Shown: one piece after another, positions 24,712-58,211 of the stretch
Position numbering within the stretch: the first letter of the stretch is position 1
Layout: each line of letters begins with the position of its first letter
Assembly (NCBI RefSeq): GCF_002770725.1
Contig: NZ_NQVN01000019.1
Span: 1 to 64,000, forward strand
From: Pleomorphomonas carboxyditropha
GTDB taxonomy: Bacteria > Pseudomonadota > Alphaproteobacteria > Rhizobiales > Pleomorphomonadaceae
DNA: 64,000 nt
Direction of reading: 5' to 3'
The notes under the pieces: model-generated
What the model was told of the DNA's origin: nothing
The model's input: only the letters and a program-made list of their open reading frames with translations
The model's database searches: none
Position numbers and translations under genes: made by a program

Positions 24712-26067
24712 TCAGCGGATGATGATGGCGTCGCCGAGCGAGGTCTTCACCTCGGTCTCGACCGCCTTGACGGCGTCGGCGACCGACGACGTCTTGGTCC
24801 ACGATGCTTCGAGGCCCTTGAACATGGCCTTCCAGACGACGCCGAAATTCGGGTCGTTGGGGATCGGTTTGGCGTGCGGCAGCAGGCCCTCGGTGGCCGT
24901 GGCGGTCCAGCGGTCGTTGGCGTAGAAGGGAATGGCCGCCTCGGCCTCGCCGATGGCGAGATGGCCCGACTTCACCGCATGCAGCGCGTTGATGCGCGGC
25001 TCGGAGGCGATGGTGATCAGCTCGGCCGACAGCGCCGCGTCCTCGTCGCTGCCCGCCTTCGACAACAGGTAGACCAAGGGGTGGGTCAGCGTGTTGGCGT
25101 GGCCCTCGGCATTGCCGGCCGGAATGAGGCTGTACTGCATCTGGCCGAAGAAGTCCTTGAGGCCCCACTTGGTCTCCCATTCGGCCTTCTGCCAGGTGCC
25201 GGCGTGCCAGGCGCCGACCTGATCGCCGGCCACCGCCTGGTGCCAGCTGTCCCAGGTGCTGCCGAGATGGGTGGCCGGCACCACGCCCTTGTCGACCGCG
25301 TCGACGAAGAACTGGTACATGCCGGTCAGCGCCGCCGTGTCGAGCAGCAGCTTGCCGCTCTCCTCGTCGACCATCTCGCCGCCGAAGCTGGTGTAGAACT
25401 GCCAGTAATCGGTGCCGTTGACCGGGCGCGGCAGGAAGCCCTTGCCCTTTTCGACGAAGCCGCCGTCCTGCATCTTCTTGACGTCGTCGAGCATGGAATA
25501 GAGCGTGTACTCGCCGCTCTCCACCTTGGCCGGCAGCGCCTCGATGTCGGCGTCCGAATAGCCGATCTGGCGCAGATGCGTCTTGGAAAAGAAGAAGGGG
25601 CGGGCCTCGGCGTCCTGCGGAATGCCCCAGATCTTGCCGTCGAAGCTCGAGACGGCGATCAGGTTCGGGTAGATCTGGTTGAGCGGCCAGGCGTCGAAAT
25701 CGACATAGTCCTCGATCGGGCGCAACAGGCCCGACTTCGACCAGCTGCCGATGTCCTCGTGGCCCGAGACGATGATGTTGGGGGCGGTGTTCGATTCGCC
25801 GGCCAGCGTCACCGCCTGCTTGAAGTCGTCCCAGCCGCTCCAGGCCTGGCCCTCGACGGTGATCTTGATGTCCTCGCCCCGGATGGCGGCTTCCTGCTGA
25901 TAGAGGTCGGCGGCCATCTTGATGGCGTCGATGCGATAGTTGGCGGTCGGCCCGGTGCCACCGGACCAGACCTTGACGGTGACGTCCCGGGCCAGCGCTG
26001 CGGCGGCCGTCGACGCCAGGATGGCGCTCGCCACGGCGAGCGTGACGGAAATCTTGCGATACGACAT
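24712..26067 (-). CDS. ABC transporter substrate-binding protein, 451 aa
   Basis: An extracellular solute-binding protein with a signal peptide (ISVTLAVASAILASTAAAAL, cleavage near ALA-RD at residue 27). The mature protein starts VTVKVWSGGTGPTANYRIDA and contains IKITVEGQAWSGWDDFKQ, GKIWGIPQDAEARPFFFSKT and AGTWQKAEWETKWGLKDF. It is larger than the average family member. First gene of the operon, behind the palindrome at 26119-26134. The ligand is unknown; the diesterase and IMPase genes suggest a glycerophosphodiester or sugar alcohol phosphate. Confidence 0.9.
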   Translation of the reverse strand: MSYRKISVTLAVASAILASTAAAALARDVTVKVWSGGTGPTANYRIDAIKMAADLYQQEAAIRGEDIKITVEGQAWSGWDDFKQAVTLAGESNTAPNIIVSGHEDIGSWSKSGLLRPIEDYVDFDAWPLNQIYPNLIAVSSFDGKIWGIPQDAEARPFFFSKTHLRQIGYSDADIEALPAKVESGEYTLYSMLDDVKKMQDGGFVEKGKGFLPRPVNGTDYWQFYTSFGGEMVDEESGKLLLDTAALTGMYQFFVDAVDKGVVPATHLGSTWDSWHQAVAGDQVGAWHAGTWQKAEWETKWGLKDFFGQMQYSLIPAGNAEGHANTLTHPLVYLLSKAGSDEDAALSAELITIASEPRINALHAVKSGHLAIGEAEAAIPFYANDRWTATATEGLLPHAKPIPNDPNFGVVWKAMFKGLEASWTKTSSVADAVKAVETEVKTSLGDAIIIR

Positions 26068-26118
26068 GGTTGGCTCTCGTTGTGGTTCGACAAGAAGACG
26101 CCGATGGATCATCGGCCG

Positions 26119-26134
26119 TTGCACGCGCGTGCAA
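26119..26134. promoter_or_regulatory. LacI-type operator of the diesterase ABC operon
   Basis: TTGCACGCGCGTGCAA is a perfect 16-bp palindrome with a central CG, the pattern of LacI-family operators, 52 bp upstream of the binding-protein ATG. The LacI protein encoded in the same operon (19663-20712) is the probable ligand. Confidence 0.7.
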
Positions 26135-26195
26135 TCGTGATAGCCGATGAATATGTCAGGGGCATTACGCCGGATCCCCCGCCTTGCCGCTCTAT

Positions 26196-26307
26196 CCGCC
26201 AGAGGTCCCGCGCCTTCGCGCAGGGAGACACCATATGAATGGGATATGTTATTGTTTTATATATAGCTCTGGCATTCTACGCGAAGGCGTAGAATCTCGG
26301 GCAGAAT
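26196..26307. repeat. Palindromic repeat family A, inverted pair
   Basis: A reverse unit at 26196-26230 (hairpin with CGCCTTCGCG) and a forward unit at 26270-26307 (hairpin CTACGCGAAGGCGTAG, then AATCTCGGGCAGAAT) flank an AT-rich core ending TTTTATATATAG. The stem sequence differs from other copies but stays paired. Confidence 0.75.
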
Positions 26308-26362
26308 GGGGCGCAACGCCGATATCGGGCTCCCATAACGGAGCGCTCCTAGGGCCTGAGCC

Positions 26363-26482
26363 GAAATTCGCTGGGGTGCGGCAGATGACGACGGCTTCGA
26401 GAACCGGAGCGGAGCGGGCTTAAGGCCCGTGAGCACCGGAAGCGCAGAAGACTAAGCCAGATGCCCGCCCCAGTAGAATTTC
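26363..26482. repeat. Palindromic repeat family B, copy 1
   Basis: About 120 bp bounded by GAAATTC and GAATTTC. Inside are CTGGGG paired with CCCCAG near the ends, GAGAACCGGAGCGGAGCG, the central hairpin GGGCTTAAGGCCC and GTGAGCACCGGAAGCGCAGA. It ends 4 bp from the stop codon of the TetR gene. Copy 2 is at 37133-37253. Confidence 0.75.
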
Positions 26483-26485
26483 CGC

Positions 26486-27133
26486 TCAGGTCCGGCCGTA
26501 GTAGGCCATGAACACGTCGAGCCCGTTGTCGACGATCCGCTCGACGCCCTCGGGCGTCGGCCGGAGACCGCAGCCGAACAGCGACTTCTTCATCACCTCC
26601 GAGGTGCAGAGGGCGATGAAATGCTGGGCGGCGACGGCCGGGTCGCAGGGTTTCAGGCGGCCGTCCTCGATGGCCCGGGCGAAGGCCTCGGTCAGCCGCG
26701 TGGTGCCGCGCTCGGCGCCGGCCCGGAAGAACATGGCGCCGACGGCGGGGAACTTCTCCACCGCGCCGACCACCATGCGGATCGACGACATGTGGTTCTC
26801 GCCGGTCAGGAGCTCGTTGAAGCTGATGGCGAAGGCGCGCAGGTTGTCGCGGAAGCTGCCCTCCGTCGGCTCGAAGGCGTCGAGGGCGGCGGCGAGCTCC
26901 CGCTTCTCGTCGGTGATCAGCTCCTCGAACAGCTCGTCCTTGTTGGTGAAGTAGACGTAGAGCGTGCCCTTGGAGACGCCGGCCGCCTTGGCGATGGCGT
27001 CCATCGCGGCGCCCTCGTAGCCCTTGGCTCGGAACACCTCGCGGGCTCCGTCGAGGATCTGCCTGCGTTTCTCGCTGTCTTGCCCTTCAGGGCCGGCCAC
27101 CGTTTCGCCGGGCCGCGCCGATACCTTGCTCAT
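26486..27133 (-). CDS. TetR-family regulator of the efflux pair, 215 aa
   Basis: The HTH reads ILDGAREVFRAKGYEGAAMD and AIAKAAGVSKGTLYVYFTNK, with the conserved GTLYxYF. The C-terminal domain has the layout of AcrR/TetR_C_7-type regulators. ATG 27133 (MSKVSARPG) follows AGGGGTGG; longer readings are less likely. It is divergent from the emrAB-like genes and the palindrome at 27307-27325 lies between them, so it should repress the pump until a toxic ligand binds. Confidence 0.9.
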   Translation of the reverse strand: MSKVSARPGETVAGPEGQDSEKRRQILDGAREVFRAKGYEGAAMDAIAKAAGVSKGTLYVYFTNKDELFEELITDEKRELAAALDAFEPTEGSFRDNLRAFAISFNELLTGENHMSSIRMVVGAVEKFPAVGAMFFRAGAERGTTRLTEAFARAIEDGRLKPCDPAVAAQHFIALCTSEVMKKSLFGCGLRPTPEGVERIVDNGLDVFMAYYGRT

Positions 27134-27306
27134 CCACCCCTGCCCTCGCGGTCCTCGCGGGACCGGCTGCATTGTCGGCCTTCCAGCCCTGCCGGGCTAT
27201 CCTGCCTTTGGCGATCCGGCCTCACGGAAGCGATGCCGACAATCACGTTTTGCTGAGAATGCCCGTTCGCGGGGCAAAACGTCAACCAACCGTCGCCATC
27301 GCATAT

Positions 27307-27325
27307 TGACCGAACGGTTCGGTCA
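27307..27325. promoter_or_regulatory. TetR-type operator between regulator and efflux genes
   Basis: TGACCGAAC and GTTCGGTCA flank a central G, a perfect 19-bp palindrome of the size bound by TetR dimers. It lies about 110 bp upstream of the HlyD start. The gap 27134-27436 holds no other recognisable element. Confidence 0.75.
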
Positions 27326-27436
27326 TGAGATAACACTTTCGACGATCAGCAACAATACTGATCCAGATATTTTGCCCGGCACCAGAGAGCGGCGCGGTCC
27401 TCCCGGCAAGCCGGCGACGGACATATGGAGATCACC

Positions 27437-28669
27437 ATGGCCAAGCGCGAAGGCAACGCCGCTCACGAGAGCGACGGCTCGGAAGCCACTGTCACTGCGA
27501 TCCGCCCGGCGAGCGAGCACGCTCCCCAGCCGACCCCGCCGCACACCCATGAAGCCAAGCCGGGGCCGCACCTCGTCGAGCGCGGCAAGCCGGCCGAAGC
27601 CGCGGCCGAACCGCCCAAGAAGAAGGGCATCCTGGGCCGCCTCGTCCTCGTCGCCCTCATCGGCGCCGCCGCCTGGTTCGGCGGCAAGGCCGGCTATGCC
27701 TGGTGGATCGACGGCCGTTTCCTGGTCACCACCGACGACGCCTATGTCGCCGCCGACATCACCACGCTGGCCGCCAAGGCCTCCGGCTACGTCACCGAGG
27801 TGATGGTCGCCGACAATCAGGTGGTGAAGAAGGGTGACGTCCTCGCCCGCATCGACAGCGGCGACTACACGCTGGCCGTCGCCCAGGCCGAGAACGCGCT
27901 CGCCGGCAACCTCGCCACCATCGCCCGCATCGACAAGCAGATCGCCGCCGGCGAGGCGCAGGTGGCGCAGGCGAGGGCCGGCGTCGCCTCCGCCCAGGCG
28001 ACGCTCGAATCGAAGGAAATCAACTTCACCCGCCAGACGACGCTGGTCACCAACAGGGTGTCGGCCCAGTCGCAGCTCGACGACGCCCGCACCGACCGCG
28101 ACGCCGCCCGCGCCGCCGTCGCCTCCGCCGAGGCGGCCGTCGCCGTCGCCGAGGCCAACATCGAGGTTCTCAAGGCCCAGAAGGCCGAATCCGAGGCCAC
28201 CGGCAAGACGCTGCAGACCGCCGTCGACAAGGCACGGCGCGACCTGTCGTTCACCGAGATCCGGGCGCCGGTCGACGGCGTGGTCGGCAACAAGGCGCTG
28301 GAAGTCGGCACCTACGTGACGCCCGGCCAGCAGCTCGCCTCGCTGGTCGCCACCGGCAGCGCCCATATCGAGGCCAACTACAAGGAAACCCAGCTCGCCG
28401 AGCTGGTGCCGGGCGAAACCGTGCGCATCACCGTCGACGCCCTCGGCGAGGAGGAGACCATCCTCGGCAAGGTCGAGAGCCTGTCGCCGGCCACCGGCTC
28501 GGTGTTCAGCCTGCTGCCGGCCAACAACGCCACCGGCAACTTCACCAAGGTGGTGCAGCGCCTGCCGGTGCGCATCTCGGTGCCGGCCGACGTGGCGGCG
28601 AGCGGCAAGCTGCGCCCCGGCCTCTCCGTGGTGGTCGCCGCCGATCCGCGCACCGCGCCCACCGGCTGA
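27437..28669 (+). CDS. EmrA/HlyD-family membrane fusion protein, 410 aa
   Basis: A periplasmic adaptor for an MFS multidrug pump. A Pro/His-rich cytoplasmic leader is followed by one membrane helix (LGRLVLVALIGAAAWFGG, about residues 66-84), the lipoyl half-motif VTTDDAYVAADITTLAAKAS, a long alpha-hairpin (about 125-245) and the second half FTEIRAPVDGVVGNKALEVG. Ends with the beta-barrel region (VRISVPADVAASGKLRPGLS). ATG 27437 was preferred to ATG 27425 because GGAG precedes it. It forms an operon with the MFS gene. Confidence 0.92.
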   Translation: MAKREGNAAHESDGSEATVTAIRPASEHAPQPTPPHTHEAKPGPHLVERGKPAEAAAEPPKKKGILGRLVLVALIGAAAWFGGKAGYAWWIDGRFLVTTDDAYVAADITTLAAKASGYVTEVMVADNQVVKKGDVLARIDSGDYTLAVAQAENALAGNLATIARIDKQIAAGEAQVAQARAGVASAQATLESKEINFTRQTTLVTNRVSAQSQLDDARTDRDAARAAVASAEAAVAVAEANIEVLKAQKAESEATGKTLQTAVDKARRDLSFTEIRAPVDGVVGNKALEVGTYVTPGQQLASLVATGSAHIEANYKETQLAELVPGETVRITVDALGEEETILGKVESLSPATGSVFSLLPANNATGNFTKVVQRLPVRISVPADVAASGKLRPGLSVVVAADPRTAPTG

Positions 28670-28750
28670 GGCCCCTCACTCGTTTCGAACCGACCGGCTT
28701 GCGCGGCGCCTCCCGCCGCGCACCCTCGGCCGACAGCCATCGGTCACCCC

Positions 28751-30316
28751 ATGTCCGCCATTGCCTCGGCCGGTGCCGGCCCCACCTTCACCACCCGCCG
28801 GCTGTTCACCTTCATCTGCATGGTGTTCGGCATGTTCATGGCGATCCTGGACATCCAGATCGTCTCGGCGTCGCTCAGCGAGATCCAGGCCGGCCTCGGC
28901 GCCGCCAACGACGAAATCTCCTGGGTCCAGACCTCCTACCTGATCGCCGAAGTGATCATGATCCCGCTGTCGGGCTACCTGTCGCGGATGATCTCGACGC
29001 GCTGGATGTTCACCATCGCCGCCGGCGGCTTCACCTTCGCCTCGATGATGTGCGCCTTCTCGTCGTCGATCAACGAGATGATCCTGTGGCGCGCCGTGCA
29101 GGGCTTCATCGGCGGCGGCATGATCCCCACGGTGTTCGCCTCGGCCTACACCATCTTCCCGCGCAGCAAGATGGGGCTGGTGACGCCGATCATCGGCCTG
29201 GTCGCCACGCTGGCGCCGACCATCGGCCCGACGGCCGGCGGCTATCTCACCGAGCTGTTCTCCTGGCACTGGCTGTTCCTGGTCAACATCATCCCCGGCA
29301 TCTTCGTCACGGTGACCAGCTATTTCCTGATCGACTTCGACGAACCCGACTTCAGCCTGTTCAAGGTGTTCGACTGGTGGGGCCTCGCCGCCATGGCCGC
29401 CTTCCTCGGCTCGATGGAATACGTGCTGGAGGAAGGCCCGAGCAAGGACTGGCTCGACGACGAGCGCATCGCGCTGCTGACCGGCATCATGGTGATCGGC
29501 GGCATCGTGTTCTTCGTCCGCGCCTTCACCCGCAAGAACCCGGTCGTCGACCTCTGGGCGTTCAAGAACCGCAACTTCGCCTTCGGCAGCGCCTTCTCCT
29601 TCTGCCTCGGCATCGGCCTCTACGGCCTCACCTACCTCTACCCGCTCTATCTCGCCCGCGTCCGCGGCTTCTCGGCACTACAGATCGGCGAGACGATGTT
29701 CGTCTCCGGCGTGGCCATGCTGCTGACGGCGCCGATCGCCGGCCGCCTGTCCAGCAAGCTCGACCCGCGCGTCATGATGGGCATCGGCTTTGCCGGCATC
29801 GCCGTCGCCACATGGCTGTCGACCGGATTCACCGCCGACTGGGATTTCTGGGAGCTGTTCTGGCCGCAGATCTTCCGCGGCGTGTTCATGATGATCTGCA
29901 TGATCCCGATCAACAACATCGCGCTCGGCACACTGCCGCCGGCCGAGATGAAGAACGCCTCGGGCCTGTTCAACCTGACCCGCAACCTCGGCGGCGCCGT
30001 CGGTCTCGCCCTGATCAACCAGATCATGACCAACCGCAGCGACCTGCATTTCGACCGGCTGCGCGACGCGGTCAACATCACCAGTTCCACCGCCATGTCG
30101 ACCATCAGCGGCATGGAGCACACCTTGTCGGGGCTCGGCAGCAATGCCCACCTCGCCGCCATCTCGCGGCTGACCAGCCTCGCCCAGCAGCAATCCACCA
30201 TCATGGCCTTCAACGACATCTTCGATCTGTTGACGGTGCTGTTCCTGGTGCTGGTCATCGCCCTGCCCTTCGTGAAGAAACCGGCGGCCCAGGGCGGCAG
30301 TGGCGGCGGGCATTAG
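28751..30316 (+). CDS. EmrB/QacA-type (DHA2) MFS multidrug exporter, 521 aa
   Basis: A 14-helix drug:proton antiporter. MFMAILDIQIVSASLSEIQA in helix 1 is the DHA2 motif D1 region, GFIGGGMIPTVFASAYTIFP and LVATLAPTIGPTAGGYLTEL are the motif C region, and GGAVGLALINQIMTNRS lies near the end. The 3' 927 bp (residues 214 to the end) are duplicated at 36174-37100. The complete copy ends TAG, the downstream fragment TAA, and the TAG begins the short repeat that bounds the inserted island, so the 3' junction may have been remodelled. Confidence 0.93.
   Translation: MSAIASAGAGPTFTTRRLFTFICMVFGMFMAILDIQIVSASLSEIQAGLGAANDEISWVQTSYLIAEVIMIPLSGYLSRMISTRWMFTIAAGGFTFASMMCAFSSSINEMILWRAVQGFIGGGMIPTVFASAYTIFPRSKMGLVTPIIGLVATLAPTIGPTAGGYLTELFSWHWLFLVNIIPGIFVTVTSYFLIDFDEPDFSLFKVFDWWGLAAMAAFLGSMEYVLEEGPSKDWLDDERIALLTGIMVIGGIVFFVRAFTRKNPVVDLWAFKNRNFAFGSAFSFCLGIGLYGLTYLYPLYLARVRGFSALQIGETMFVSGVAMLLTAPIAGRLSSKLDPRVMMGIGFAGIAVATWLSTGFTADWDFWELFWPQIFRGVFMMICMIPINNIALGTLPPAEMKNASGLFNLTRNLGGAVGLALINQIMTNRSDLHFDRLRDAVNITSSTAMSTISGMEHTLSGLGSNAHLAAISRLTSLAQQQSTIMAFNDIFDLLTVLFLVLVIALPFVKKPAAQGGSGGGH
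29389..30315 (+). repeat. 927-bp direct repeat, left copy (3' part of the MFS gene)
   Basis: Aligns without gaps to 36174-37100 at a constant offset of 6785. I see five substitutions, at 30085, 30145, 30176, 30235 and 30299, all in the last 231 bp; the first 696 bp appear identical. The two copies flank the Detocs block in direct orientation. Confidence 0.9.
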
Positions 30317-30380
30317 GTGTTTGATCGCGGTTTTCGATAGTGCATTCTTTTCGCCGGGTGGAAGGAGGCGCTGTGGGCCA
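30314..30380 (+). repeat. Short imperfect direct repeat, left edge of the island
   Basis: Starts with the MFS stop codon: TAGGTGTTTGATC, then GCGGTTTT, GCATTCTTTT and GTGGAAGGAGGCGC. The same order of blocks occurs at 36119-36182 after the membrane-protein stop codon. The first 13 bp are identical. Confidence 0.75.
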
Positions 30381-30407
30381 AGTTCTTCACGGAAGCGCCA
30401 CATAGAC

Positions 30408-31616
30408 TTATAGCAAGTCGGCGGCATATCGTTCCAGAAAGAGCTGGATGGTACCTGCCGAGAGATGAGAAGAGTATCTCTGATATCTATCATTCTTATA
30501 ATGATCAGCGTGATCGCAGACACCTTTCAAACCGAACATTATAGGACGTGGGGACGCAGCATCCCTGCATGCGCTGTAGACAGCGTACATTTCCATATCA
30601 AAAGCTATTAGCTTCCGATTTTGCTTACGCACCTCTTCTGTAACTGTCTCGTCAGCGATCACCGAAGAGCCAGAGGCCATCGGCCCGCACTTAATGCGCG
30701 GTATCGCGATCGGCTTCTCCCCCTCAAACCTCTCGGAGATCGTCAGAAGAGCATGGCTATCCTGCGCCAGAACTTTAAACTTCTCTGTTATTTCTGGCGA
30801 AAGACAAATCTGATCAGGATTAATCTCGAATGTTTCCTTGGTGTACTTTCCCATTTGCCAATCCCACGCGGGATCAGCAACGACAACCTCTCCAAGCTCC
30901 GCCTCCCCCCGGACTCCCGCGCATATTCCAGCCATAACAACCAAGCGAGGCCGAAGATTGCAAATAACCTTAGTGACTAGTGTTGCGGTGGCGACCATCC
31001 CCATACGAGGCGCAGAGATCGCATCAACCGAATATTGCTTGCCACCGCTCTCAAAGCGACCGGAATAGTGAAAGCTCGCCGAGTCGAACGCTTGGGCAGG
31101 GCCGAATCCCCATGGGATTCTTCTAACGAAATCCAGTTCCGGCGATGATAGTGCAGTAACTATGCACACGTCCCTTTTAAAATAGAGCGGCTTAACTTGA
31201 TCTAATGATGATCTCAGATAGCCTACCTTCGCCACAAGACGTTCACGCCATCCATTATCAGCAGGGTCATAGAGGTCCGCGACCCAAACACCATTATTAA
31301 ATTTATCCAAGAATTCTTCCAGCAGCTTTCTGAACCCTGTCAATGCAAGAACATTTGGCGGCTTTTTGAACCGCTGACTTCGCTCTAGCTCGGTGAGAAG
31401 GTTGAGACCACCCTTTTCGTCAGGAATATCCCCATCACGAAAAGGCAATGCAATATCAAGAATAAGTAAATCGTAGCGAATTAGAGACAGCCGCTCCCGG
31501 GCAGCCAGACTTGTCGTTTCTGTTTCAACTGAGTCGGCATCCGAGCATTTACTCTCCACAAGTGACTTTAATAGATGAAGTTTAGCCGCATCGTCATCAA
31601 CAATTAGTATTCTCAC
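30408..31616 (-). CDS. dtcC: DtcC-like effector: receiver domain fused to a nucleoside-phosphorylase-like domain, 402 aa
   Basis: Residues 1 to about 135 are a response-regulator receiver: acidic cluster DDD (7-9), phospho-acceptor D54 in LLILDIALP, and LALTGF. Residues 148-402 match the MTA/SAH nucleosidase (PNP_UDP) fold: VVMAGICAGVRGEAELGEVV, GPMASGSSVIAD, the catalytic Glu region DMEMYAVYSA (E342) and KGVCDHADHY (D369). In the published Detocs system this fusion hydrolyses ATP to adenine and ribose triphosphate after phosphotransfer from DtcA, stopping phage growth. The GTG start at 31616 overlaps the dtcB stop (GTGA). AT-rich relative to the flanks. Domains are seen; the ATP substrate is inferred. 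Confidence 0.88.
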   Translation of the reverse strand: MRILIVDDDAAKLHLLKSLVESKCSDADSVETETTSLAARERLSLIRYDLLILDIALPFRDGDIPDEKGGLNLLTELERSQRFKKPPNVLALTGFRKLLEEFLDKFNNGVWVADLYDPADNGWRERLVAKVGYLRSSLDQVKPLYFKRDVCIVTALSSPELDFVRRIPWGFGPAQAFDSASFHYSGRFESGGKQYSVDAISAPRMGMVATATLVTKVICNLRPRLVVMAGICAGVRGEAELGEVVVADPAWDWQMGKYTKETFEINPDQICLSPEITEKFKVLAQDSHALLTISERFEGEKPIAIPRIKCGPMASGSSVIADETVTEEVRKQNRKLIAFDMEMYAVYSACRDAASPRPIMFGLKGVCDHADHYKNDRYQRYSSHLSAGTIQLFLERYAADLL

Positions 31617-32089
31617 CTTTTACTCCCATAAGAGAGAATGTCGTTCATCCAGTATTCTAGTTCCGCTTCCCATTTCCGGTCACCCGAGCTATACCAAAGT
31701 AATGCTTTGAAGGTATTTGGAAATTTGAGATGCAGCTCAGATCTTAAAGCATCTAGACTGACTTCGGCGCCATCGTCTCGCTTGAATCCCGGAAATTGAG
31801 TAATAACGATTGTGGGAATGGAGATTTTTCGGCGAACCATGTGTTCAAACACGGTAAGGCCACCAAAGTTCTGTGGGCGCCCTCCAGCCTCATGCGGACC
31901 AACGTCATAGGTACTTAAAGACATATCTAGCAGCATAATTGTGGGTTTAGAGTCAACAATGGAACTTAGTCCACTCGATACCGATCGCTCTACGCACATA
32001 GTAGCGTCTTTGTACCGACTACGCACGAAGTCCGATATACGTTTAGCCTTAAATGCATCGTCTTCGACAAGCAAAACTCGGGGCATCAT
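31613..32089 (-). CDS. dtcB: DtcB-like stand-alone receiver protein, 158 aa
   Basis: A single receiver domain: VLLVEDD with acidic residues 9-11, phospho-acceptor D55 in IMLLDMSLS, and TIVITQF for the switch Thr. After the phospho-acceptor there is an extended loop (YDVGPHEAGGRPQNFGG). There is no output domain. In Detocs, DtcB is thought to drain phosphate from DtcA and so prevent accidental firing of DtcC. The first ATG overlaps the dtcA stop codon by four bases, and dtcC follows with a GTGA overlap, so the three genes are coupled. Confidence 0.87.
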   Translation of the reverse strand: MMPRVLLVEDDAFKAKRISDFVRSRYKDATMCVERSVSSGLSSIVDSKPTIMLLDMSLSTYDVGPHEAGGRPQNFGGLTVFEHMVRRKISIPTIVITQFPGFKRDDGAEVSLDALRSELHLKFPNTFKALLWYSSGDRKWEAELEYWMNDILSYGSKR

Positions 32090-35000
32090 GCGGTCTCTAT
32101 GGATTCACTTTGCAGGGTAATTGCTATCACGACACTCACACTAACAACGAATGAGTTATCCGTGAAACAAAAGTCAAGCGACTGCCGATTATCAGATGCT
32201 ACTATACGTTTCAATTTAAGGAATCCAGACCCTCCTTCAAGCTTTACCCTCGATCGCCAGTCTCCAGAGACTATTTGTTCTCGTATTTTGTTAACCCTAT
32301 TTTTATTATTCGCTGATATTACGTGAGGAGCAACTTCACTCTCAACATTGATTATGACTCGTATCGCGCTATCGTCCTCAAGGGGCTCGCTACGCATCTT
32401 TATTTTGACATTCGGCGTATTGCCGTTAACGCCGCAATGACGATGAACATTATCTAACACTGTGAAGAGGATGTCAGTAATTTCGACAAGAACATCAGGG
32501 CCTTGGAGGCCAAGGTCCTCGATTTCCATCTCCAGCTTCGGTTCAAACGAGCGATGAGCGTTCATCGTTGCCTGAACAGCAATTTCAACAATTTGATGCA
32601 TCGTTCGGAGTGCAGCACGCTCATTCTTTTCGTTTGGCGCAAACCAGGCTGCGACCCTGTCCAAGCTTGCCTGCCAGTCTGTTGAGGCTTCAGCCACCGC
32701 TTTTTGCAATTCGAGGCGTGCTTGGTGTGAGCTTGCGAGCGACTTCGAGTCGCTAAGCATTCCTAGGGCGCTTTCCGCCCTTTCACGAAAATCACCGATA
32801 AGATAGTTCTTGACCTGTTGAAGGCTACGCTGAAGGAAGACATCCAACATCTCGTAGATTTTTTGAAGCAGATCATCCAGCGTGGTCGACTCGTCGATAC
32901 CCGACCTAACATAATAAACTGACAAGGGAGTCATTTCGTAGGCAAACAGACCATCTGGTTTGTTCGGTGTACGAATTTGAAGGCGGGTCTTTATCAGATC
33001 GGATACAAGCTGTTCATACTCGATAGAAAAGCGCTCGATGTCTTCCTTGAAATCACGCCACCTGTCAGGGACGTCAAATTTTCCGGTCGCTTTATCACGG
33101 GCAACAAGGACTCCCGCTTCCTCTAGAGGGCCTCGCAGATGCCCCGCCAACGAGCCATGTCGCACGCGCATGCTGAGATAGGCATCGAGACCACACTCCT
33201 CATCATTAAAGTAGCGATGAACGACCGAATCTATAATCTCAATTAATAACTGCCCCTGTTCATCTTTCGGATAGAGCACCAAGCCAGTACCGCTAACATC
33301 TTTCCCTCCAAGGAAATCTTTGACAAGCTTTTCGAACTCTCCGGGATCTTCGAAGCCGGATTTGGCGCGGGTCAGCGCTTTGTATCGTTCAAAGCTCTCT
33401 GCCAACTCTTTCGATGCCCAACGTCCAAGACGAACAAGATCTACAAATACTCTGCTGCGATCTACGTCTTCGATCCCCTCTTCAATATCTATGCCTCTCG
33501 TTATATCTTTGATTTCATTCCGATATTCTGCGCTACGGTCGCTGTCGATCAAGGCAAGGGATGAGCAAACCGAGATTCGCTCTCGGAGCGTATCGCGCGA
33601 GGTTTTGAAAAGCCAGAAGCTGACGTCCATAACCGCCGGTATGCACACGTTGCGAAGGAAAGTTTTAACAGCCGCTGAGTTCGCCGCAAGGCCGCTTTCG
33701 GCTAGTTGGGTAGGTCGCTCAAATCCATACCCAGCAAGCGTATCCTCGTACGCAAACTGCAGCTGTTGAAAGATCTCCCTGTCTTCCTTAATTTGCAGGT
33801 ATTCGAAGAGAACCACCGCGAGGGAAAGCTTATTATCGATTTCAAAGCGGATAGCCCTCAACTCGGATGTTATCCTCTCTAGCGCCAATAGTTGGCGAGT
33901 TCCCTCGCCGTTTACACAGAGACTTGCTGCTGTACCCACCGCATTCTCAAGATTTCCCAGTTCGATATAGGCAGCCACTATAATCGGTGCCATCCTTCGC
34001 TCGTCGCGCGATCCGGCTACGGGATAATGACAGAGAACGTCTAGCGCGAGCTGAGGCGAGCCGTCAGCGAGGGCTTTTCGAGCGCAAATCTCGCGAGCGA
34101 TGGGGGACCCTGCACAGGCAATAGCGTCACCAGAAAGTGCTTGTCGCACCTCAGCCGCTGGCGCCACGGCTTTCGTCATCTCAAGAAGGACATCCGCGCA
34201 AGAGGCCGGGATTGTAATGGCTTGCCAAGGATGTAGAGTTTTTGAAAATAAGAAAAGGCCACTAGCGCGGGAAAGCGAAAATACAGGCAAGTCAAAAGAC
34301 TGCAGCATTACAAAAGAGCTTATGGCGCGAATAATGTCTAGATGCCGAAAATTGGCTAACCGTTTCAGACCTGCATCGATAGTCTGCGCAAAATTCGTAT
34401 TTCTTTCGATTGAAATTGCAACCAATCGCGCAATATCGGCAGCAAAATCCGTAAACTTTACATTTACCTCCTCTGGATTAGACAAAAACGCTTCAAGCGA
34501 TATACCATTTCCTTTCACATCCCTATTTAGCTCGGCTACGGATTGTAAAGTAGGACTTTGGAGGAACTGCATTCGTTCTCCCAACGCATCGCCTCCTGAT
34601 GTCAATCGGGAGAAAGCATATAGCGTTTCTGCAGACGGGATTTGTTCAGACTCACTCAAACTACTTAGAGCGTCCCGGAGGGTCATGTAAGCATCGATGA
34701 TCGAGAGAGAGCTAATCGAAGCAAGAACCCCCGAGGCTTGTTCGTCACTCAATGATTCAAAAGTCTCGATACCGAGCAAATAGCTGTAGGCAAGATGTAC
34801 CGTTACTGGCACCTTCCAGTTAGCCATGCTATTGCGCAATCGCGACTGGAATCGGGCATAGATTGTTCCCTCTTCGTTGCGTTGGCTTACCCAATACGCA
34901 ATGACGGCAGCGGCGCTTCCCGGTGCAACACGCCCAAATGAACCAGCAAACTCCTTCTGAGCCTCAAGGCCACGTCCTGTTTGCAAGATCGCGATACGCA

Positions 35001-35469
35001 GCTCGATTGCCCAGAGACAAAGTCCAAACTCTTGCTCTATGTGGTCAAGTGCGACCAATGCGGCTTCGAATTCACCAAGAAGAACCTGCTTTTCGATCCC
35101 CTCTTGGAGTTTCCAAAAGCGGGTAATCTTCTCGCGCTGTTCGTCTAGAAGTTTTATTAGGAGATGGACACGATTAGTCAAGGACATCCCGGTCTGAACG
35201 TCGGAAAATACAAGAGATGACGGTTCGCGAACGGGAGATACAGGAAATATTCTTACCGTCTTGGACGGGAAACCTGTCAGCCAAGCTAGGAATTCGGGCG
35301 TCTCACTCGACGGTAACGACGCAAGCCCACCAAGTATAAGATCAACTCCCGATTTTTTGGGCGCGCCAAACCTGTGAATATGCGTAAGATATGGGCTCTT
35401 CGGGGTATTGAAAGTACCCCTGATTGCATTCTTGGCGGCGTCAATCGGCTTACGTCTGCGCTTTCTCAT
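32086..35469 (-). CDS. dtcA: DtcA-like sensor kinase: helical N-terminus and C-terminal GHKL ATPase, 1127 aa
   Basis: The first 700 or so residues are almost entirely helical with TPR/HEAT-like character (LLGEFEAALVALDHIEQEFG, AYIELGNLENAVGTAASLC) and no membrane segment, suggesting a cytoplasmic sensor. MRVRHGSLAGHLRGPLE (767-783) is a distinctive segment. The C-terminal GHKL ATPase has an N-box in EITDILFTVLDNVHRH (Asn1007) and a G-box in GGSGFLKLKRI (1079-1089), but the usual DxGxG box appears degenerate (IINVESEVAP). In Detocs this protein senses infection and phosphorylates DtcB and DtcC. ATG 35469 was chosen over a TTG two codons earlier. Domain layout, partners and order fit DtcA; sequence identity to known DtcA was not tested. 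Confidence 0.85.
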   Translation of the reverse strand: MRKRRRKPIDAAKNAIRGTFNTPKSPYLTHIHRFGAPKKSGVDLILGGLASLPSSETPEFLAWLTGFPSKTVRIFPVSPVREPSSLVFSDVQTGMSLTNRVHLLIKLLDEQREKITRFWKLQEGIEKQVLLGEFEAALVALDHIEQEFGLCLWAIELRIAILQTGRGLEAQKEFAGSFGRVAPGSAAAVIAYWVSQRNEEGTIYARFQSRLRNSMANWKVPVTVHLAYSYLLGIETFESLSDEQASGVLASISSLSIIDAYMTLRDALSSLSESEQIPSAETLYAFSRLTSGGDALGERMQFLQSPTLQSVAELNRDVKGNGISLEAFLSNPEEVNVKFTDFAADIARLVAISIERNTNFAQTIDAGLKRLANFRHLDIIRAISSFVMLQSFDLPVFSLSRASGLFLFSKTLHPWQAITIPASCADVLLEMTKAVAPAAEVRQALSGDAIACAGSPIAREICARKALADGSPQLALDVLCHYPVAGSRDERRMAPIIVAAYIELGNLENAVGTAASLCVNGEGTRQLLALERITSELRAIRFEIDNKLSLAVVLFEYLQIKEDREIFQQLQFAYEDTLAGYGFERPTQLAESGLAANSAAVKTFLRNVCIPAVMDVSFWLFKTSRDTLRERISVCSSLALIDSDRSAEYRNEIKDITRGIDIEEGIEDVDRSRVFVDLVRLGRWASKELAESFERYKALTRAKSGFEDPGEFEKLVKDFLGGKDVSGTGLVLYPKDEQGQLLIEIIDSVVHRYFNDEECGLDAYLSMRVRHGSLAGHLRGPLEEAGVLVARDKATGKFDVPDRWRDFKEDIERFSIEYEQLVSDLIKTRLQIRTPNKPDGLFAYEMTPLSVYYVRSGIDESTTLDDLLQKIYEMLDVFLQRSLQQVKNYLIGDFRERAESALGMLSDSKSLASSHQARLELQKAVAEASTDWQASLDRVAAWFAPNEKNERAALRTMHQIVEIAVQATMNAHRSFEPKLEMEIEDLGLQGPDVLVEITDILFTVLDNVHRHCGVNGNTPNVKIKMRSEPLEDDSAIRVIINVESEVAPHVISANNKNRVNKIREQIVSGDWRSRVKLEGGSGFLKLKRIVASDNRQSLDFCFTDNSFVVSVSVVIAITLQSESIETA

Positions 35470-35647
35470 GCTCAACGGCCTGCAATTATTAATTGTATAG
35501 AATTGAATATCGAAAGCTTTTTATGGGCGCAAGGGCTCGGGGAAAAAATGATAAGGACCGAATTTGCTTTTTGGAACGTTGGGATTACACTTGTGAAACA
35601 GTTGTGCAAGGAGCGGCTTGGGCAACATATCGAGAGATAAGAGTAGC
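35470..35647. promoter_or_regulatory. Divergent promoter region of the island
   Basis: For the rightward gene, TTTGCT (35563-35568) with a 17-bp spacer and TACACT (35586-35591). For dtcA, a TATACA -10-like element on the minus strand (35499-35494) about 25 bp before the ATG with no clear -35. The region is AT-rich, unlike neighbouring host promoters. Confidence 0.5.
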
Positions 35648-36121
35648 ATGGGCGACAGAATTCTAAGTAATGAGGCCATTGCCAACCACGTTTGGAAGTA
35701 TTTTGAGATCCACGCCAGCCAGAGGCTGACTGTATTTAATTTTTTCTCGGCGTTCTCTGGTTTGATTATAGCCGGAATTGGCGCCGTGGGGCAGGCTTCC
35801 CTCAATTATGCAGTTGTCGGAATCGCCTTAGGGGCCATACTGGTCGTGGTCTCCTTTGTATTTTGGAAATTGGACCAACGATCAGCCTTTCTTGTGAAAC
35901 ATGCGGAGGAGGCGCTGAAAGTGCTCGAAGGCGAAATGACTGCCGACCTTAAGCTCTTTACAAGCGAGCCGGTCCGACGCTCCGTGGCAAATAATGACGC
36001 TAATTGGCTTATCCAGCCTTGGACATTTGGCAAGTCGTTCCGATGCCTCTTCTTACTGACGGCAATTTGTGGTTTAGCTGCCTTAGTATTTTTCATAGCC
36101 CGCCTCTTGCGAGGGATCTAG
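35648..36121 (+). CDS. Small membrane protein next to the Detocs genes, 157 aa
   Basis: Three predicted membrane helices: about 28-50 (TVFNFFSAFSGLIIAGIGAV), 52-73 (LNYAVVGIALGAILVVVSFV) and 130-153 (FRCLFLLTAICGLAALVFFI). VWKYFEIHASQRLTVFNFF and FWKLDQR at 72-78 resemble a family of small bacterial membrane proteins that I recall near defence genes (RipA-like or 2TM/SLATT-like), but I cannot confirm the family. ATG 35648 follows GAGATAAGAG. It is divergent from dtcA and inside the same repeat boundaries, so it travelled with the system and might be an accessory or second effector. Confidence 0.75.
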   Translation: MGDRILSNEAIANHVWKYFEIHASQRLTVFNFFSAFSGLIIAGIGAVGQASLNYAVVGIALGAILVVVSFVFWKLDQRSAFLVKHAEEALKVLEGEMTADLKLFTSEPVRRSVANNDANWLIQPWTFGKSFRCLFLLTAICGLAALVFFIARLLRGI

Positions 36122-36182
36122 GTGTTTGATCCGGGTTTTGAGGAAGCATTCTTTTAGCGGCAGTGGAACGAGGCGCCATGGC
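36119..36182 (+). repeat. Short imperfect direct repeat, right edge of the island
   Basis: Starts with the membrane-protein stop codon: TAGGTGTTTGATC, then CGGGTTTT, GCATTCTTTT and GTGGAACGAGGCGCC, running directly into the second MFS copy. It mirrors 30314-30380. Confidence 0.75.
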
Positions 36183-37100
36183 CGCCTTCCTCGGCTCGAT
36201 GGAATACGTGCTGGAGGAAGGCCCGAGCAAGGACTGGCTCGACGACGAGCGCATCGCGCTGCTGACCGGCATCATGGTGATCGGCGGCATCGTGTTCTTC
36301 GTCCGCGCCTTCACCCGCAAGAACCCGGTCGTCGACCTCTGGGCGTTCAAGAACCGCAACTTCGCCTTCGGCAGCGCCTTCTCCTTCTGCCTCGGCATCG
36401 GCCTCTACGGCCTCACCTACCTCTACCCGCTCTATCTCGCCCGCGTCCGCGGCTTCTCGGCACTACAGATCGGCGAGACGATGTTCGTCTCCGGCGTGGC
36501 CATGCTGCTGACGGCGCCGATCGCCGGCCGCCTGTCCAGCAAGCTCGACCCGCGCGTCATGATGGGCATCGGCTTTGCCGGCATCGCCGTCGCCACATGG
36601 CTGTCGACCGGATTCACCGCCGACTGGGATTTCTGGGAGCTGTTCTGGCCGCAGATCTTCCGCGGCGTGTTCATGATGATCTGCATGATCCCGATCAACA
36701 ACATCGCGCTCGGCACACTGCCGCCGGCCGAGATGAAGAACGCCTCGGGCCTGTTCAACCTGACCCGCAACCTCGGCGGCGCCGTCGGTCTCGCCCTGAT
36801 CAACCAGATCATGACCAACCGCAGCGACCTGCATTTCGACCGGCTGCGCGACGCGGTCAACATCACCAGCTCCACCGCCATGTCGACCATCAGCGGCATG
36901 GAGCACACCTTGTCGGGGCTCGGCAGCAACGCCCACCTCGCCGCCATCTCGCGGCTGACCGGCCTCGCCCAGCAGCAATCCACCATCATGGCCTTCAACG
37001 ACATCTTCGATCTGTTGACCGTGCTGTTCCTGGTGCTGGTCATCGCCCTGCCCTTCGTGAAGAAACCGGCGGCCCAGGGCGGCGGTGGCGGCGGGCATTA
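36174..37100 (+). repeat. 927-bp direct repeat, right copy
   Basis: The partner of 29389-30315. Identity begins abruptly at CGCCATGGCC in the middle of the transporter gene and runs to the base before the last base of the stop codon. The sequence after this copy (CCTTTTCCACACC) differs from that after the left copy. Confidence 0.9.
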
Positions 37101-37101
37101 A
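36178..37101 (+). pseudogene. 5'-truncated copy of the EmrB-like MFS gene (307 codons)
   Basis: Keeps residues 215-521 of the transporter in frame, starting at MAAFLGSMEYVLEEG and ending TAA. It lacks the first five or six membrane helices and the DHA2 motifs, so it cannot be a working pump, although an ATG happens to open the frame. Two of its five substitutions relative to the full copy change the protein (LTGLAQ for LTSLAQ; QGGGGGGH for QGGSGGGH). Absence of stop codons indicates a recent origin. Confidence 0.88.
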
Positions 37102-37132
37102 CCTTTTCCACACCGGGACGGAGACCGTTTGA

Positions 37133-37253
37133 GAAATTCGCTCCGGTGAGTCGGCTGGCACGGCTTTCGAGAACCGGAGCGGAGCGGACTTTGAGGTCCG
37201 TGAGCACCGGAAGCGCAGAAAGTCGCGTCAGACGGCCGCCGGAGTAGAATTTC
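37133..37253. repeat. Palindromic repeat family B, copy 2
   Basis: About 121 bp bounded by GAAATTCGCTCCGG and CCGGAGTAGAATTTC. Inside, CTTTC pairs with GAAAG, and the central hairpin is GGACTTTGAGGTCC where copy 1 has GGGCTTAAGGCCC. It lies between the converging MFS fragment and pstB, where it may end transcription from both sides. Confidence 0.78.
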
Positions 37254-37264
37254 AAAACGGTCTA

Positions 37265-38092
37265 TCAGCCGAAGCGGCCAGTCACATACGCCTCGGTGCG
37301 CTGGTTCCGCGGGTGGGTGAAAATGTCGTCGGTGGCGCCGAACTCGATCAGTTCGCCGAGATACATGAAGGCCGTGTATTCGGACACGCGGACCGCCTGC
37401 TGCATGTTGTGGGTGACGATGGCGATGCAATAGGCGGCGCGCAGCTCGTCGATCAGTTCCTCGATCTTGGCGGTGGAAATGGGATCGAGGGCCGACGCCG
37501 GCTCGTCGAGAAGCAGCACCTCGGGACGAATGGCGATGGCGCGGGCGATGCAGAGGCGTTGCTGCTGGCCGCCGGACAGGCCGAGGCCGCTCTGCGCGAG
37601 CTTGTCCTTGACCTCCTCCCACAGCGCGGCTTCGCGCAGCGCCGCCTCCACGCGCTCGTCCAGCTCGGCCTTGCCGAGCTTTTCGTGCAGGCGGACGCCA
37701 AAGGCGATGTTCTCGTAGATCGACATCGGGAACGGCGTCGGCTTCTGGAACACCATGCCGATGCGCCCCCTCAGCTCTTCGAGGTCCTCGGATTTCGACA
37801 GGATGTTGCGACCGTCGAACAGAACCTCTCCCGTCGCCGTCTGTCCGGGATAGAGATCGTACATCCGGTTGAAGATCCTGAGCAGCGTCGACTTGCCGCA
37901 GCCGGACGGGCCGATGAAGGCCGTGACGGCCCGGTCGCGCAAGGTCACGTCGATGCCCTTCAGGACCTCGTGGTTCCCGTCATAGGAAAAGCGCAAGCCC
38001 CTGGCATCGATCTTGGCCGGCTTTTCCAGCGCCGAACCGATGGCGCGGCGCCCGTTCGATACACCGGCTTCGGGCGGACGAAGGTTGATCAT
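37265..38092 (-). CDS. pstB: Phosphate ABC transporter ATP-binding protein PstB, 275 aa
   Basis: ATPase of the high-affinity phosphate importer. Walker [20 protein letters not shown], the PstB-typical [20 protein letters not shown], signature [16 protein letters not shown], Walker [14 protein letters not shown], and [20 protein letters not shown] are all diagnostic. Last gene of the leftward pstSCAB operon. phoU, which often follows, is not present here. Confidence 0.96.
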
Positions 38093-38104
38093 GGCGGCTG
38101 TCCT

Positions 38105-38941
38105 TCAGGAATGTTTGGAGGTGCCGAGCGCGCGGGCGCCAATGTTGATGACGAGGATGGTCAGCGTGATGATGAACGCTCCCGCCCAGGCGAGCCGCTG
38201 CCAGTCGTCGTAGGGGCTCATGGCGAACTGGAAGATGACGACCGGCAGGCTCGCCATCGGCGCGTTCATGTCGGAATTCCAGTATTGATTGCTGAGCGCG
38301 GTGAACAAGAGCGGCGCGGTCTCGCCGGCGACGCGGGCGTAGGCGAGCAGAATGCCGGTGAGAAGGCCGTTGCTCGCCGCCCGCCAGACCACCGAGACGA
38401 CGACGCGCCAGCGCGGCGTGCCGAGCGCCACCGCCGCCTCGCGCAGCGAGCCGGGCACCAGTTGCAGCATGTCCTGAGTGGTCCGGACGATGACCGGCAA
38501 GGCGATGATGACCAGCGAAACGGCGCCGGCCCAGGCCGAGAAATGCCCCATCGGCACCACCATGGCCGTGTAGACGAACAGGCCGATCACGATGGACGGC
38601 GCGCTGAGCAGCACGTCGTTGAGGAAGCCGGCCGCGGCGGCCACGCGCGACCGGCCGGAGAATTCGGCCAGCGCCGTGCCGGCCATGACGCCCAGCGGCG
38701 CGGCGATCGCCAGCGCCACCAGCGTCATGACGGCGGAGCCGTAAAGCGCGTTGGCAAGTCCGCCCGCCACGCCCGGCGGCGGCGTGTCCAGGTAGAACAG
38801 CTCCGGGCTGATGGCCGCGACGCCACGGCTGAGCAGCGTCCAGAGAATGGCGGCGAGGATGACGAGGCCGAAGGCCGTGGCGACCATCGACAGCAGCATG
38901 GCGATGCGGCTGGTCCAGCGTCGACGGGAAAGGCGGGACAT
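38105..38941 (-). CDS. pstA: Phosphate ABC transporter permease PstA, 278 aa
   Basis: Six membrane helices. [40 protein letters not shown] and [20 protein letters not shown] match PstA. ATG 38941 (MSRLSRRRW) lies 11 bp after the pstC stop with GAGG before it. It pairs with PstC to form the membrane channel. Confidence 0.95.
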
Positions 38942-38952
38942 CGGCAACCTCG

Positions 38953-39912
38953 TCAATGAAACGTGGAACGCTGGATCATCCACTTGGCCAGTCCGAGGAC
39001 GAAGAAGGTGATGACCGACAGGATGAGGCCGAGGGCGATCAGGCTCGCGGTGTAGAGCGGCGACGTGGCTTCGGTGAATTCATTGGCGATCGAGGCGGAA
39101 ATGGTCGTGGCCGGCGCCATCAGCGAGGCGGCGATCCGGTGCGAGTTGCCGATGACGAAGGTCACCGCCATGGTCTCGCCGAGCGCCCGGCCGAGACCGA
39201 GCATGATCCCGCCGACAAGACCGGTGCGGCAATAGGGAATGACGATGTGGCGGATCACTTCCCAGGTGGTCATGCCGACGCCATAGGCCGCTTCGCGCAG
39301 CATGGCCGGAACGGTCGCAAAGACATCCCGCGTCACCGCCGTGATGAAGGGCAGCGCCATGATCGCCAGCACCACGCCGGCGGTCAGCATGCCGACACCA
39401 TAAGGCGCGCCCTTGAACAGCACGCCGATGCCGGGCAGATTGCCGAGCGTGGCGATGAGCGCCGGCTGTATCGTGCTCTGCATGATCGGCGCCAGCACGA
39501 AGAAGCCCCAGAGCCCGTAGATGATGCTCGGAATGCCGGCGAGCAGCTCGATGGCGATGCCGATCGGCCTTCTCAGCGGCGGCGGGCAAAGCTCGGTCAG
39601 GAAGATGGCGATGCCGAAGGACAGGGGAACGGCGATCACCATGGCGATGGCCGAGGTGACCAGGGTTCCGTAAATGGGCGCGGCGGCGCCGAACAGATCC
39701 TTGGCCGGACTCCAGCGGTCCGACCAGACGAATTCCGGGCCGAATTCCCTCAGCGCCGGCAGGGCGCCGAGGGCGAGCGCCACCAGCACGCCACCCAGAA
39801 CGGCGACGACCAGCGATGCGGAGCCCCGGCTCAGGAGGATGAACAGCCGGTCGCCGAACCTGGTTCGGGCCGGGCGAGGCGGCCGGCCGGCCGCCGCCCC
39901 GAGGCCGGACAT
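38953..39912 (-). CDS. pstC: Phosphate ABC transporter permease PstC, 319 aa
   Basis: Helices and PstC hallmarks: [60 protein letters not shown] and [19 protein letters not shown]. The start is uncertain: ATG 39912 gives a length like the family, but an in-frame TTG at 39960 behind AAAGG would add 16 residues. Confidence 0.93.
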
Positions 39913-40068
39913 GGAGGGACCGTCGGCCACCGTGCCGGCGGAGGAGTCGGACGTCTTCAATGCTGGCGCCTTTGACCCGAAGGGAAGAAACGGATTTCGG
40001 CAAATGGAATCGGCGGGTGAAGCCCGTGCCCCCACCCGCCGAAGCAATGCTCTCCTCGGACGAAGAGA

Positions 40069-41124: not shown

Positions 41125-41203
41125 GTCGTCTCTCCCAAGGTGCTTGTGTACTGGCCCGGAGGGAACCAGCTTGGTTCGACAAACGTCCGGCTATGCCCGT
41201 AGC

Positions 41204-41221
41204 ATGACAGTCGGGTGACGG
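41204..41221 (-). promoter_or_regulatory. Pho box upstream of pstS
   Basis: On the minus strand CCGTCAC (41221-41215), a 4-bp spacer CCGA, then CTGTCAT (41210-41204): two 7-bp half sites at 11-bp spacing as bound by PhoB. The rest of the 41125-41443 gap shows no gene. Confidence 0.8.
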
Positions 41222-41443
41222 TCATATCGGTGTGGTTTTCAATATAGCGTGATTGGACCCGGCGGACGCGGATCGCGGCGCCGGCCTGTTTTCCTCTAGC
41301 CGATTGTTCTCCGGGGACGTTTGGGCAGGCCGGTCCCGGAAAACGGCGTATAGCCACGCCAAAACGGAAAAGACCTCCGGCCATCCGCCCGAAGGCAATC
41401 GCCTGTGAAGGCACGGAAACCTATATTGGCTCACGGAGCGGCC

Positions 41444-58085: not shown

Positions 58086-58211
58086 CGATTTGCCCCTTGA
58101 ATTGCCGGCGACGTCACCTATCTGTCGTACTGTGAGTTTAAACACACGGATAACGCTTCTGGTCTTTGACCACGGATGTACTGGCACTGATCATAGAGGC
58201 GTTGGAGAGAA

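Follow-up and report, generated by a model that had tools for sequence, protein, structure and literature searches.

Organisation of the locus

The analysed stretch of DNA (hereafter the window) comprises 64,000 nucleotides of the genome of the alphaproteobacterium Pleomorphomonas carboxyditropha (contig NZ_NQVN01000019.1, positions 1 to 64,000). It carries a putative anti-phage phosphorelay operon of the Detocs type, next to which lies a gene for a small membrane protein homologous to Cap19 of a cyclic oligonucleotide-based antiphage signalling system (CBASS). The three operon genes occupy positions 30408–35469 of the minus strand and overlap by 4 bp at 31613–31616 and 32086–32089, just as an earlier first-pass annotation of the window had described them. 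The four genes are as follows:

30408–31616, minus strand: dtcC-like gene, 402 aa, GTG start; receiver (D7, D8, D54, T93) and nucleoside phosphorylase-like (PNP)/nucleosidase domain (E342, D368)
31613–32089, minus strand: dtcB-like gene, 158 aa; lone receiver (E9, D10, D55, T97)
32086–35469, minus strand: dtcA-like gene; C-terminal histidine kinase with N-box N1009, GGSG at 1081–1084 and H773 in an R-H motif
35648–36121, plus strand: Cap19 homolog (Pfam 8xMP), 157 aa; three predicted transmembrane segments; divergent from dtcA

The dtcA product is 1127 aa long when counted from the ATG at 35469, the length given in the first-pass annotation; the listed open reading frame (ORF) of 1129 aa starts from a TTG two codons upstream, and DtcA residue numbers are counted from that TTG. 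The interval 30408–35469 chosen in that annotation holds the three operon genes correctly and is nonetheless too short, since the cassette, at about 30317–36172, also holds a fourth gene, that of the Cap19 homolog, which had been missed. The G+C content of the cassette is 48.8% versus 65–68% in the flanks, in keeping with the earlier remark that the block is AT-richer; the counts given there (25 of 60 G+C in one line of the block and 41 of 60 in one line of the flanking gene) are exact.

Assignment of the three-gene operon to Detocs

A profile search of the three proteins, suggested in the first-pass annotation as a check, was run with PADLOC and matched dtcC to PDC-M60C (E-value 1.2e-121), dtcB to PDC-M60B (1.2e-46) and dtcA to PDC-M60A (3.3e-148). 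E-values of 1e-46 to 1e-148 exclude a chance or mis-called trio of genes. From its architecture, we take PDC-M60 of PADLOC to be the Detocs family; the experimentally studied Detocs is reportedly from Vibrio alginolyticus. DtcA, DtcB and DtcC occur together in 40 of 60 genome-contig loci of DtcC relatives, where the order kinase, receiver, receiver-effector is kept. A strong DtcC match was present in six of 397 genomes of the order (own genome counted), and none was found in the 13 other genomes of the genus.

Detocs has been described as a three-gene system whose PNP effector yields adenine and ribose-5'-triphosphate (PMC11249213), and its parts as a kinase, a buffer and a response regulator (PMC11728103). 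With Detocs of the PNP-effector kind the window shares three overlapping genes for a large kinase, a lone receiver and a receiver-PNP protein, as well as the phospho-acceptor and catalytic acids; the difference is the extra Cap19-family membrane gene of the cassette. Because the three-gene operon fits in its gene order and domains, its catalytic and phospho-acceptor residues, its sporadic distribution and the grouping of its effector, it is by these features one more member of the described Detocs family, in agreement with the first-pass assignment, and family membership makes a Detocs function very likely.

One could also propose that these genes encode a PNP-containing two-component regulator unconnected with defence, acting in metabolic or cell-cycle signalling, given that regulatory proteins often contain receiver and kinase domains and that the locus is known from sequence alone. 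Such a role is highly improbable in view of the matches to PADLOC candidate-defence profiles, the sporadic distribution (6/397), the occurrence of relatives on plasmids, many maps of which show an integrase or transposase close by, and on viral contigs, the deviant G+C content, the recent-looking insertion, and the grouping of the effector with those of Detocs.

No match was found in E. coli genomes for either the window dtcC or a Mangrovibacter Detocs used as query; thus, the published E. coli Detocs island is not tied to the window locus.

The phosphorelay proteins DtcA and DtcB

The receiver of DtcB scores below the Pfam cut-off (16.9 versus 30.2 bits), while residues E9, D10, D55 and T97 are invariant in nine sequences. 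By these residues, DtcB is a lone receiver predicted to be able to take phosphate, and its PDC-M60B match bears out the earlier description of a receiver-only protein.

No Pfam match up to an E-value of 1 was obtained for DtcA. A structure model was built from its C-terminal 580 residues together with 41 relatives, and it shows a histidine-kinase domain (predicted local distance difference test score, pLDDT, 87.7; predicted template modelling score, pTM, 0.85). The top PDB matches of the model are histidine kinases, among them a bacteriophytochrome (1.9e-05), GacS and ZraS. Both the model and the invariance of N1009 agree with the C-terminal GHKL ATPase proposed in the first-pass annotation. 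Among 42 sequences, H773 of the R-H motif is the sole invariant histidine in the C-terminal 580 residues, the ATP-site residues N1009 and G1084 being invariant too, and H773 is again the sole invariant histidine over the full length of DtcA in eight sequences. We infer that H773 could be the phospho-acceptor of DtcA. Its modelled position, between two short helices about 90 residues before the long helical hairpin, is, as far as the model goes, not the usual place for an acceptor histidine. DtcA may group with other DtcA proteins rather than with unrelated GHKL proteins, to judge from the PDC-M60A match and from co-occurrence with DtcB and DtcC.

The DtcC effector and its phylogeny

The Pfam domains of DtcC are a receiver (PF00072, E-value 2.2e-07) and PNP_UDP_1 (PF01048, 2.1e-14), so the fusion of a receiver to a phosphorylase-like domain had been recognised correctly. 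Of the two catalytic acids named at that stage, E342 stands and D369 does not: alignment with a methylthioadenosine/S-adenosylhomocysteine (MTA/SAH) nucleosidase places the second acid at D368, residue 369 being a histidine. Residues of both the receiver and the PNP domain, including E342 and D368, are invariant in eight aligned sequences.

The catalytic fold and acids are common to DtcC and MTA/SAH nucleosidases, which lack a receiver. The score of DtcC against the NCBIfam model of these enzymes is 52.4 versus a cut-off of 169 bits. In a tree of 40 PNP rows, consisting of eight MTA/SAH nucleosidases and 32 rows of a larger 93-row tree, the window DtcC falls within 14 Detocs effectors (support 98/87), inside a group of 26 (98/99), while the eight MTA/SAH nucleosidases form a separate clade (98/92). 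A single clade of the window DtcC and these nucleosidases, the grouping that had been named as speaking against a Detocs assignment, was rejected on the 40-row tree (p 0.016). A housekeeping MTA/SAH nucleosidase is ruled out by the receiver fusion, the operon, the NCBIfam score and the tree.

In the 93-row tree, the window domain belongs to a group of 77 (84/86) made up of Detocs effectors and 14 freestanding PNP proteins. Four of the five other PNP proteins of its own genome lie outside this group on long branches, and the domains of the CBASS effector Cap17 fall outside it as well. The freestanding proteins (L093–L106) are about 280–310 aa long, have no receiver and group with Detocs effectors in the trees; the labels of their contigs are mostly cyanobacteria and actinobacteria.

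A Cap19 homolog next to the operon

The product of 35648–36121 is 157 residues long with three predicted hydrophobic segments. Its score for Pfam 8xMP (PF24838) is 32.7 versus a cut-off of 30 bits; among six Cap19 relatives, one (L115) is above the cut-off (31.6) and five are below (21.2 to 27.9). It shows 41% identity over 136 aa (E-value 8e-37) to Cap19 of the E. coli upec-117 CBASS (NZ_CP054230, 75767–76222). An alignment of nine Cap19 sequences, drawn from Detocs and CBASS loci, has 26 invariant columns, which include most of the stretch W-x-YFE-x-H-x-x-QR-x-T-x-FN. On the Cap19 tree, the window protein lies on a long branch with the Cap19 proteins of Acinetobacter CBASS and L117 (91/95).

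PADLOC 2.0.0 gave no convincing match for the Cap19 gene, and none of the CBASS profiles used (Cap17, CdnC, Cap7, Cap6, Cap18) matched window positions 26001–42000; the gene sits by a Detocs, not in a CBASS operon. A PDB search by sequence found no convincing relative. A structure model of Cap19, computed from a two-sequence alignment, had a pLDDT of 62.1, and its PDB matches (best E-value 0.26) are meaningless.

In 2022 Cap19 was named as an uncharacterised membrane protein needed for CBASS protection. The defence of the upec-117 system against phage lambda cI- was strongly affected when cap19 carried a stop codon, but not when the Cap18 exonuclease was catalytically dead (PMC9122588). No other relevant paper on Cap19 and no paper combining Detocs, transmembrane and nucleosidase was found in the open-licence literature.

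The effect of the stop codon bears on whether the Cap19-family protein could instead be a restraint or immunity protein, shielding uninfected cells from the PNP effector. It is generally known that toxic effectors can have immunity proteins among their small membrane partners, and absence from many Detocs would fit an optional safety device. Against this, the cap19 stop codon impairs CBASS protection. A pure immunity protein would rather be required for viability, and a membrane protein is not an obvious restraint for an ATP-cleaving enzyme, which acts in the cytosol. We regard this role as improbable.

Linkage of Cap19 to PNP effectors

A census of plasmids was made by tblastn with a CBASS Cap19 (E-value up to 1e-5), and the resulting 45 records were sorted by coordinates against Cap17 and DtcC lists and by gene maps. 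A PNP-type effector adjoins Cap19 in 36 of the 45 records: 22 are CBASS, 12 are Detocs and two are PNP-NACHT systems, both of the latter on Pantoea agglomerans plasmids. Gene maps were read for five of the 22 CBASS with Cap17, five of the 12 Detocs and both PNP-NACHT records. The other nine records are Cap18-Cap19 pairs beside umuD, as though the rest of an L044-like CBASS had been deleted; two of the nine maps were read, and the other seven share match figures with one of those two. The Klebsiella plasmids L045 and L127 have this umuD-Cap18-Cap19 arrangement, resembling deletion remnants of the L044 CBASS. Conversely, all 22 Cap17 plasmid records (Cap17 at an E-value up to 1e-30) have Cap19. 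Two further Detocs-Cap19 loci were found, on the chromosome of E. coli PSJ-36 and on a viral contig.

In Detocs, Cap19 takes four arrangements: divergent before dtcA (the window), on the same strand before dtcA (L009, L047, L116, L130), on the same strand after dtcC (L006, L131), and convergent after dtcC (L115). The L131 copy is damaged: its dtcA is annotated as two pieces flanking an IS3 element, and its Cap19 is cut short ahead of IS903. In Pantoea agglomerans (L128:7001-10525, L129:7001-10525), the PNP-NACHT locus consists of a single gene in L129 and of two annotated genes in L128; L129 also has a shorter Cap19, of 130 aa.

As a control on this census, the cyclase of the same CBASS was searched against plasmids, giving 83 matches, 60 of them listed. 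The listed records include all 22 with Cap17; the remaining 38, which lack Cap17, are all absent from the Cap19 list. Fourteen of these 38 carry cyclases nearer the query (61–67% identity) than those of Cap19-bearing records with 52–55% identity, which come from Acinetobacter, Pseudomonas and K. grimontii. Three of the 38 maps were read, and the effectors are TIR, TIR and NucC. Both TIR records keep a Cap18-type exonuclease and have no Cap19 match, and the N-terminal parts of their TIR effectors match the Cap17 model PDLC00759 (residues 6–181 and 11–174). A tie of Cap19 to the CBASS cyclase or to Cap18 is therefore unsupported, since two Cap17-less records have both without Cap19. Cap19 thus accompanies the PNP part, and neither the cyclase nor Cap18 nor the N-terminal domain. 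Taken together, the distribution suggests that Cap19 follows the PNP effector, not the sensor.

This association was also traced on phylogenetic trees, which had been inspected before the clade tests were made. For 61 Detocs DtcC domains, the tree requires at least five changes of the Cap19 label, and one clade for the seven Cap19-linked DtcC rows was rejected (p 1e-46). On the Cap19 tree, a single Detocs-linked clade was rejected (p 0.0096) and a single CBASS-linked clade weakly so (p 0.036).

Partner or passenger

The counts above could be set against a simpler explanation, in which the locus is an ordinary three-gene Detocs and the Cap19 homolog is an unrelated passenger in the same island. 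Several observations favour this and weigh against a partnership. Cap19 is absent from all 60 genome-contig and all six viral loci found via DtcC, some of which are cut by contig ends; the window gene is divergent from the operon rather than inside it, and defence genes generally cluster in islands. The 45 plasmid records contain many near-copies and few independent lineages, since eight of the 12 Detocs records are of one Klebsiella type and eight of the 22 CBASS records of one Acinetobacter type. The three kinds of neighbour need only three changes on the Cap19 tree, where two is the minimum possible, so that swapping between systems rests on few events. In even genome samples (398 genomes at E-values up to 1e-6 and 369 genomes at up to 1e-10), the Cap19 profile matched six genomes, and the window gene alone was beside a PNP system; no PNP gene was recognised in the 15–20 kb surrounding each of the other five, divergent Cap19-family genes (E-values 1e-13 to 1e-38). 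A small membrane gene as a general part of Detocs is likewise unsupported, with such genes at six of 46 loci and at 0.047 per kb versus 0.037 per kb farther away. The Detocs part of the reading has its own weak points: the window system is likened to tested Detocs through profiles and architecture and is known here from its genes, and the DtcA model aligns with kinases over part of its length, with query TM-scores of about 0.2.

Against the passenger explanation stand the close homologs that adjoin a PNP effector in 36 of the 45 plasmid records, with three kinds of sensor and four arrangements in Detocs, the lack of Cap19 in all of the listed related-cyclase records without Cap17, the repeated changes on the DtcC tree, and the impaired CBASS protection caused by the cap19 stop codon. 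On balance, a passenger appears unlikely, and Cap19 is a probable functional partner of the PNP effector. That close homologs occur with the same kind of effector whether the sensor is a cyclase, a phosphorelay or a NACHT protein, and are missing next to a related CBASS cyclase without Cap17, suggests that their function is tied to the nucleosidase. In Detocs, Cap19 is an optional partner, and the claim concerns the close Cap19 subfamily.

Divergent Cap19-family genes at two loci (L117:9629-11651 and L118:9426-12432) lie near weak DUF4406/Nuc_deoxyrib_tr matches, below the Pfam cut-offs. These neighbours would be other enzymes acting on N-glycosidic bonds, of the nucleoside 2-deoxyribosyltransferase type, which is only a lead.

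Comparison with other systems

PNP effectors in CBASS, Detocs and NLR (nucleotide-binding leucine-rich repeat)-like systems have already been published (PMC10952713). With the CBASS carrying Cap17, Cap18 and Cap19 (E. coli upec-117; NZ_CP054230), the window shares a PNP effector domain and a Cap19 homolog; the CBASS has a cyclase, Cap6 and Cap7 where the window has a phosphorelay, and no Cap18 exonuclease was found in window positions 26001–42000. The NLR-like PNP-NACHT system of Pantoea agglomerans likewise combines a PNP domain with a neighbouring Cap19 homolog, but its sensor is a NACHT ATPase, in L129 on the same polypeptide as the PNP domain.

Only two families of membrane genes recur beside Detocs, Cap19 and DUF4231/SLATT. 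In Detocs with a downstream DUF4231/SLATT_1 gene (an Agrobacterium Ti plasmid, E. coli pKTa005_3 and Klebsiella pINF156.1), a small membrane gene adjoins the operon, as in the window, but unlike the window protein its product is not recognisably Cap19. DUF4231/SLATT_1-type genes occur by Detocs of different branches (L002:7415-7906, L004:7232-7684, L132:7774-8256 and L079:3496-3981, the last by local profile only), and their products are possibly an alternative membrane partner.

Further PNP-like genes were noted next to some of these operons. On the Agrobacterium Ti plasmid, an HNH_2-PNP-EAD7 protein (L002:360-1787) is encoded directly upstream of Detocs, and likewise, by profile, in L056 and L058; it is a candidate second PNP effector in the same island. 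On Klebsiella pINF156.1, the Detocs that precedes the DUF4231 gene has just upstream of it a gene for a protein annotated as TIR (L132:1078-3054), whose N-terminal domain is PNP-like.

Proposed mechanism

The best explanation of the locus, in which we have good confidence, is a horizontally acquired four-gene anti-phage cassette combining a phosphorelay Detocs with a Cap19-family membrane protein. DtcA would sense infection and autophosphorylate, most likely on His773, via its C-terminal kinase domain. The phosphate would then pass to the receivers of DtcB, which serves as a phosphate buffer in described Detocs, and of DtcC. DtcC would then be expected to destroy cellular ATP, as the effector of this known kind of anti-phage system does. 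The Cap19-family protein could work with the PNP effector at the membrane, either as an anchor or as an oligomeric membrane effector; in the latter case, it might respond to the products of the PNP domain or to the fall in ATP. Gene content, domains, residues, family grouping and linkage were computed here, while the Detocs chemistry and the importance of Cap19 in CBASS are taken from print; from these we infer the action in the host organism and the molecular role of Cap19.

A bolder proposal is that Cap19 is the dedicated membrane partner of ATP-nucleosidase (PNP) effectors, with which it moves between CBASS, Detocs and NLR-like systems, and that it is oligomeric and responds to the reaction, making killing a two-step process. 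We consider this speculative and rather doubtful as a whole. If it were true, PNP systems would kill by ATP cleavage plus a membrane event cued by ribose-5'-triphosphate, adenine or the fall in ATP. In our opinion, the linked Cap19 gene matters more than the Detocs operon itself; the data suggest that Cap19 is an overlooked partner of the PNP effector and that the annotation of PNP-based defence systems should include its gene.

Borders and insertion of the cassette

The block looks like a mobile, horizontally acquired cassette. It begins directly after the stop codon of a complete gene for a major facilitator superfamily (MFS) transporter and is followed by a 927-bp repeat of the 3' end of that gene:

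29389–30315, plus strand: MFS segment, first copy of the 927-bp direct duplication; 3' part of the complete MFS transporter gene 28751–30316
30314–30371, plus strand: left terminal direct repeat, imperfect; begins at the stop codon of the MFS gene
36119–36173, plus strand: right terminal direct repeat, imperfect; begins at the Cap19 stop codon and runs into the second MFS copy
36174–37100, plus strand: MFS segment, second copy; truncated gene with five mismatches to the first copy

The alignment score of the terminal repeats is 76 versus 35 for the best of 300 shuffles. A pattern derived from the repeat had no occurrence beyond these two sites in the own genome, and the 13 other genomes of the genus lack it. 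The five mismatches between the MFS copies give no clear pointer to the original. An ORF at 36126–37247 was considered as a further cassette gene and rejected; the true frame is 36163–37101, which belongs to the second copy of the MFS 3' end.

The region was fetched from six relatives. In one, about 3.2 kb separates the MFS gene from the phosphate-transport operon, and nothing in between matches the cassette; in the other five, the phosphate-transport operon is outside the stretch fetched. No recombinase gene was recognised in the cassette, and no tRNA was found in the window. As a guess, entry could have occurred through recombination of a circle carrying the MFS segment, the alternative being a long target duplication.

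Two other elements were noted in the window. At 37121–37268 lies a repetitive element about 150 bp long, bounded by inverted repeats and present in many copies across the genus, and positions 58120–58239 match the Rfam alphaproteobacterial small RNA ar35 (74.5 bits versus a cut-off of 45).

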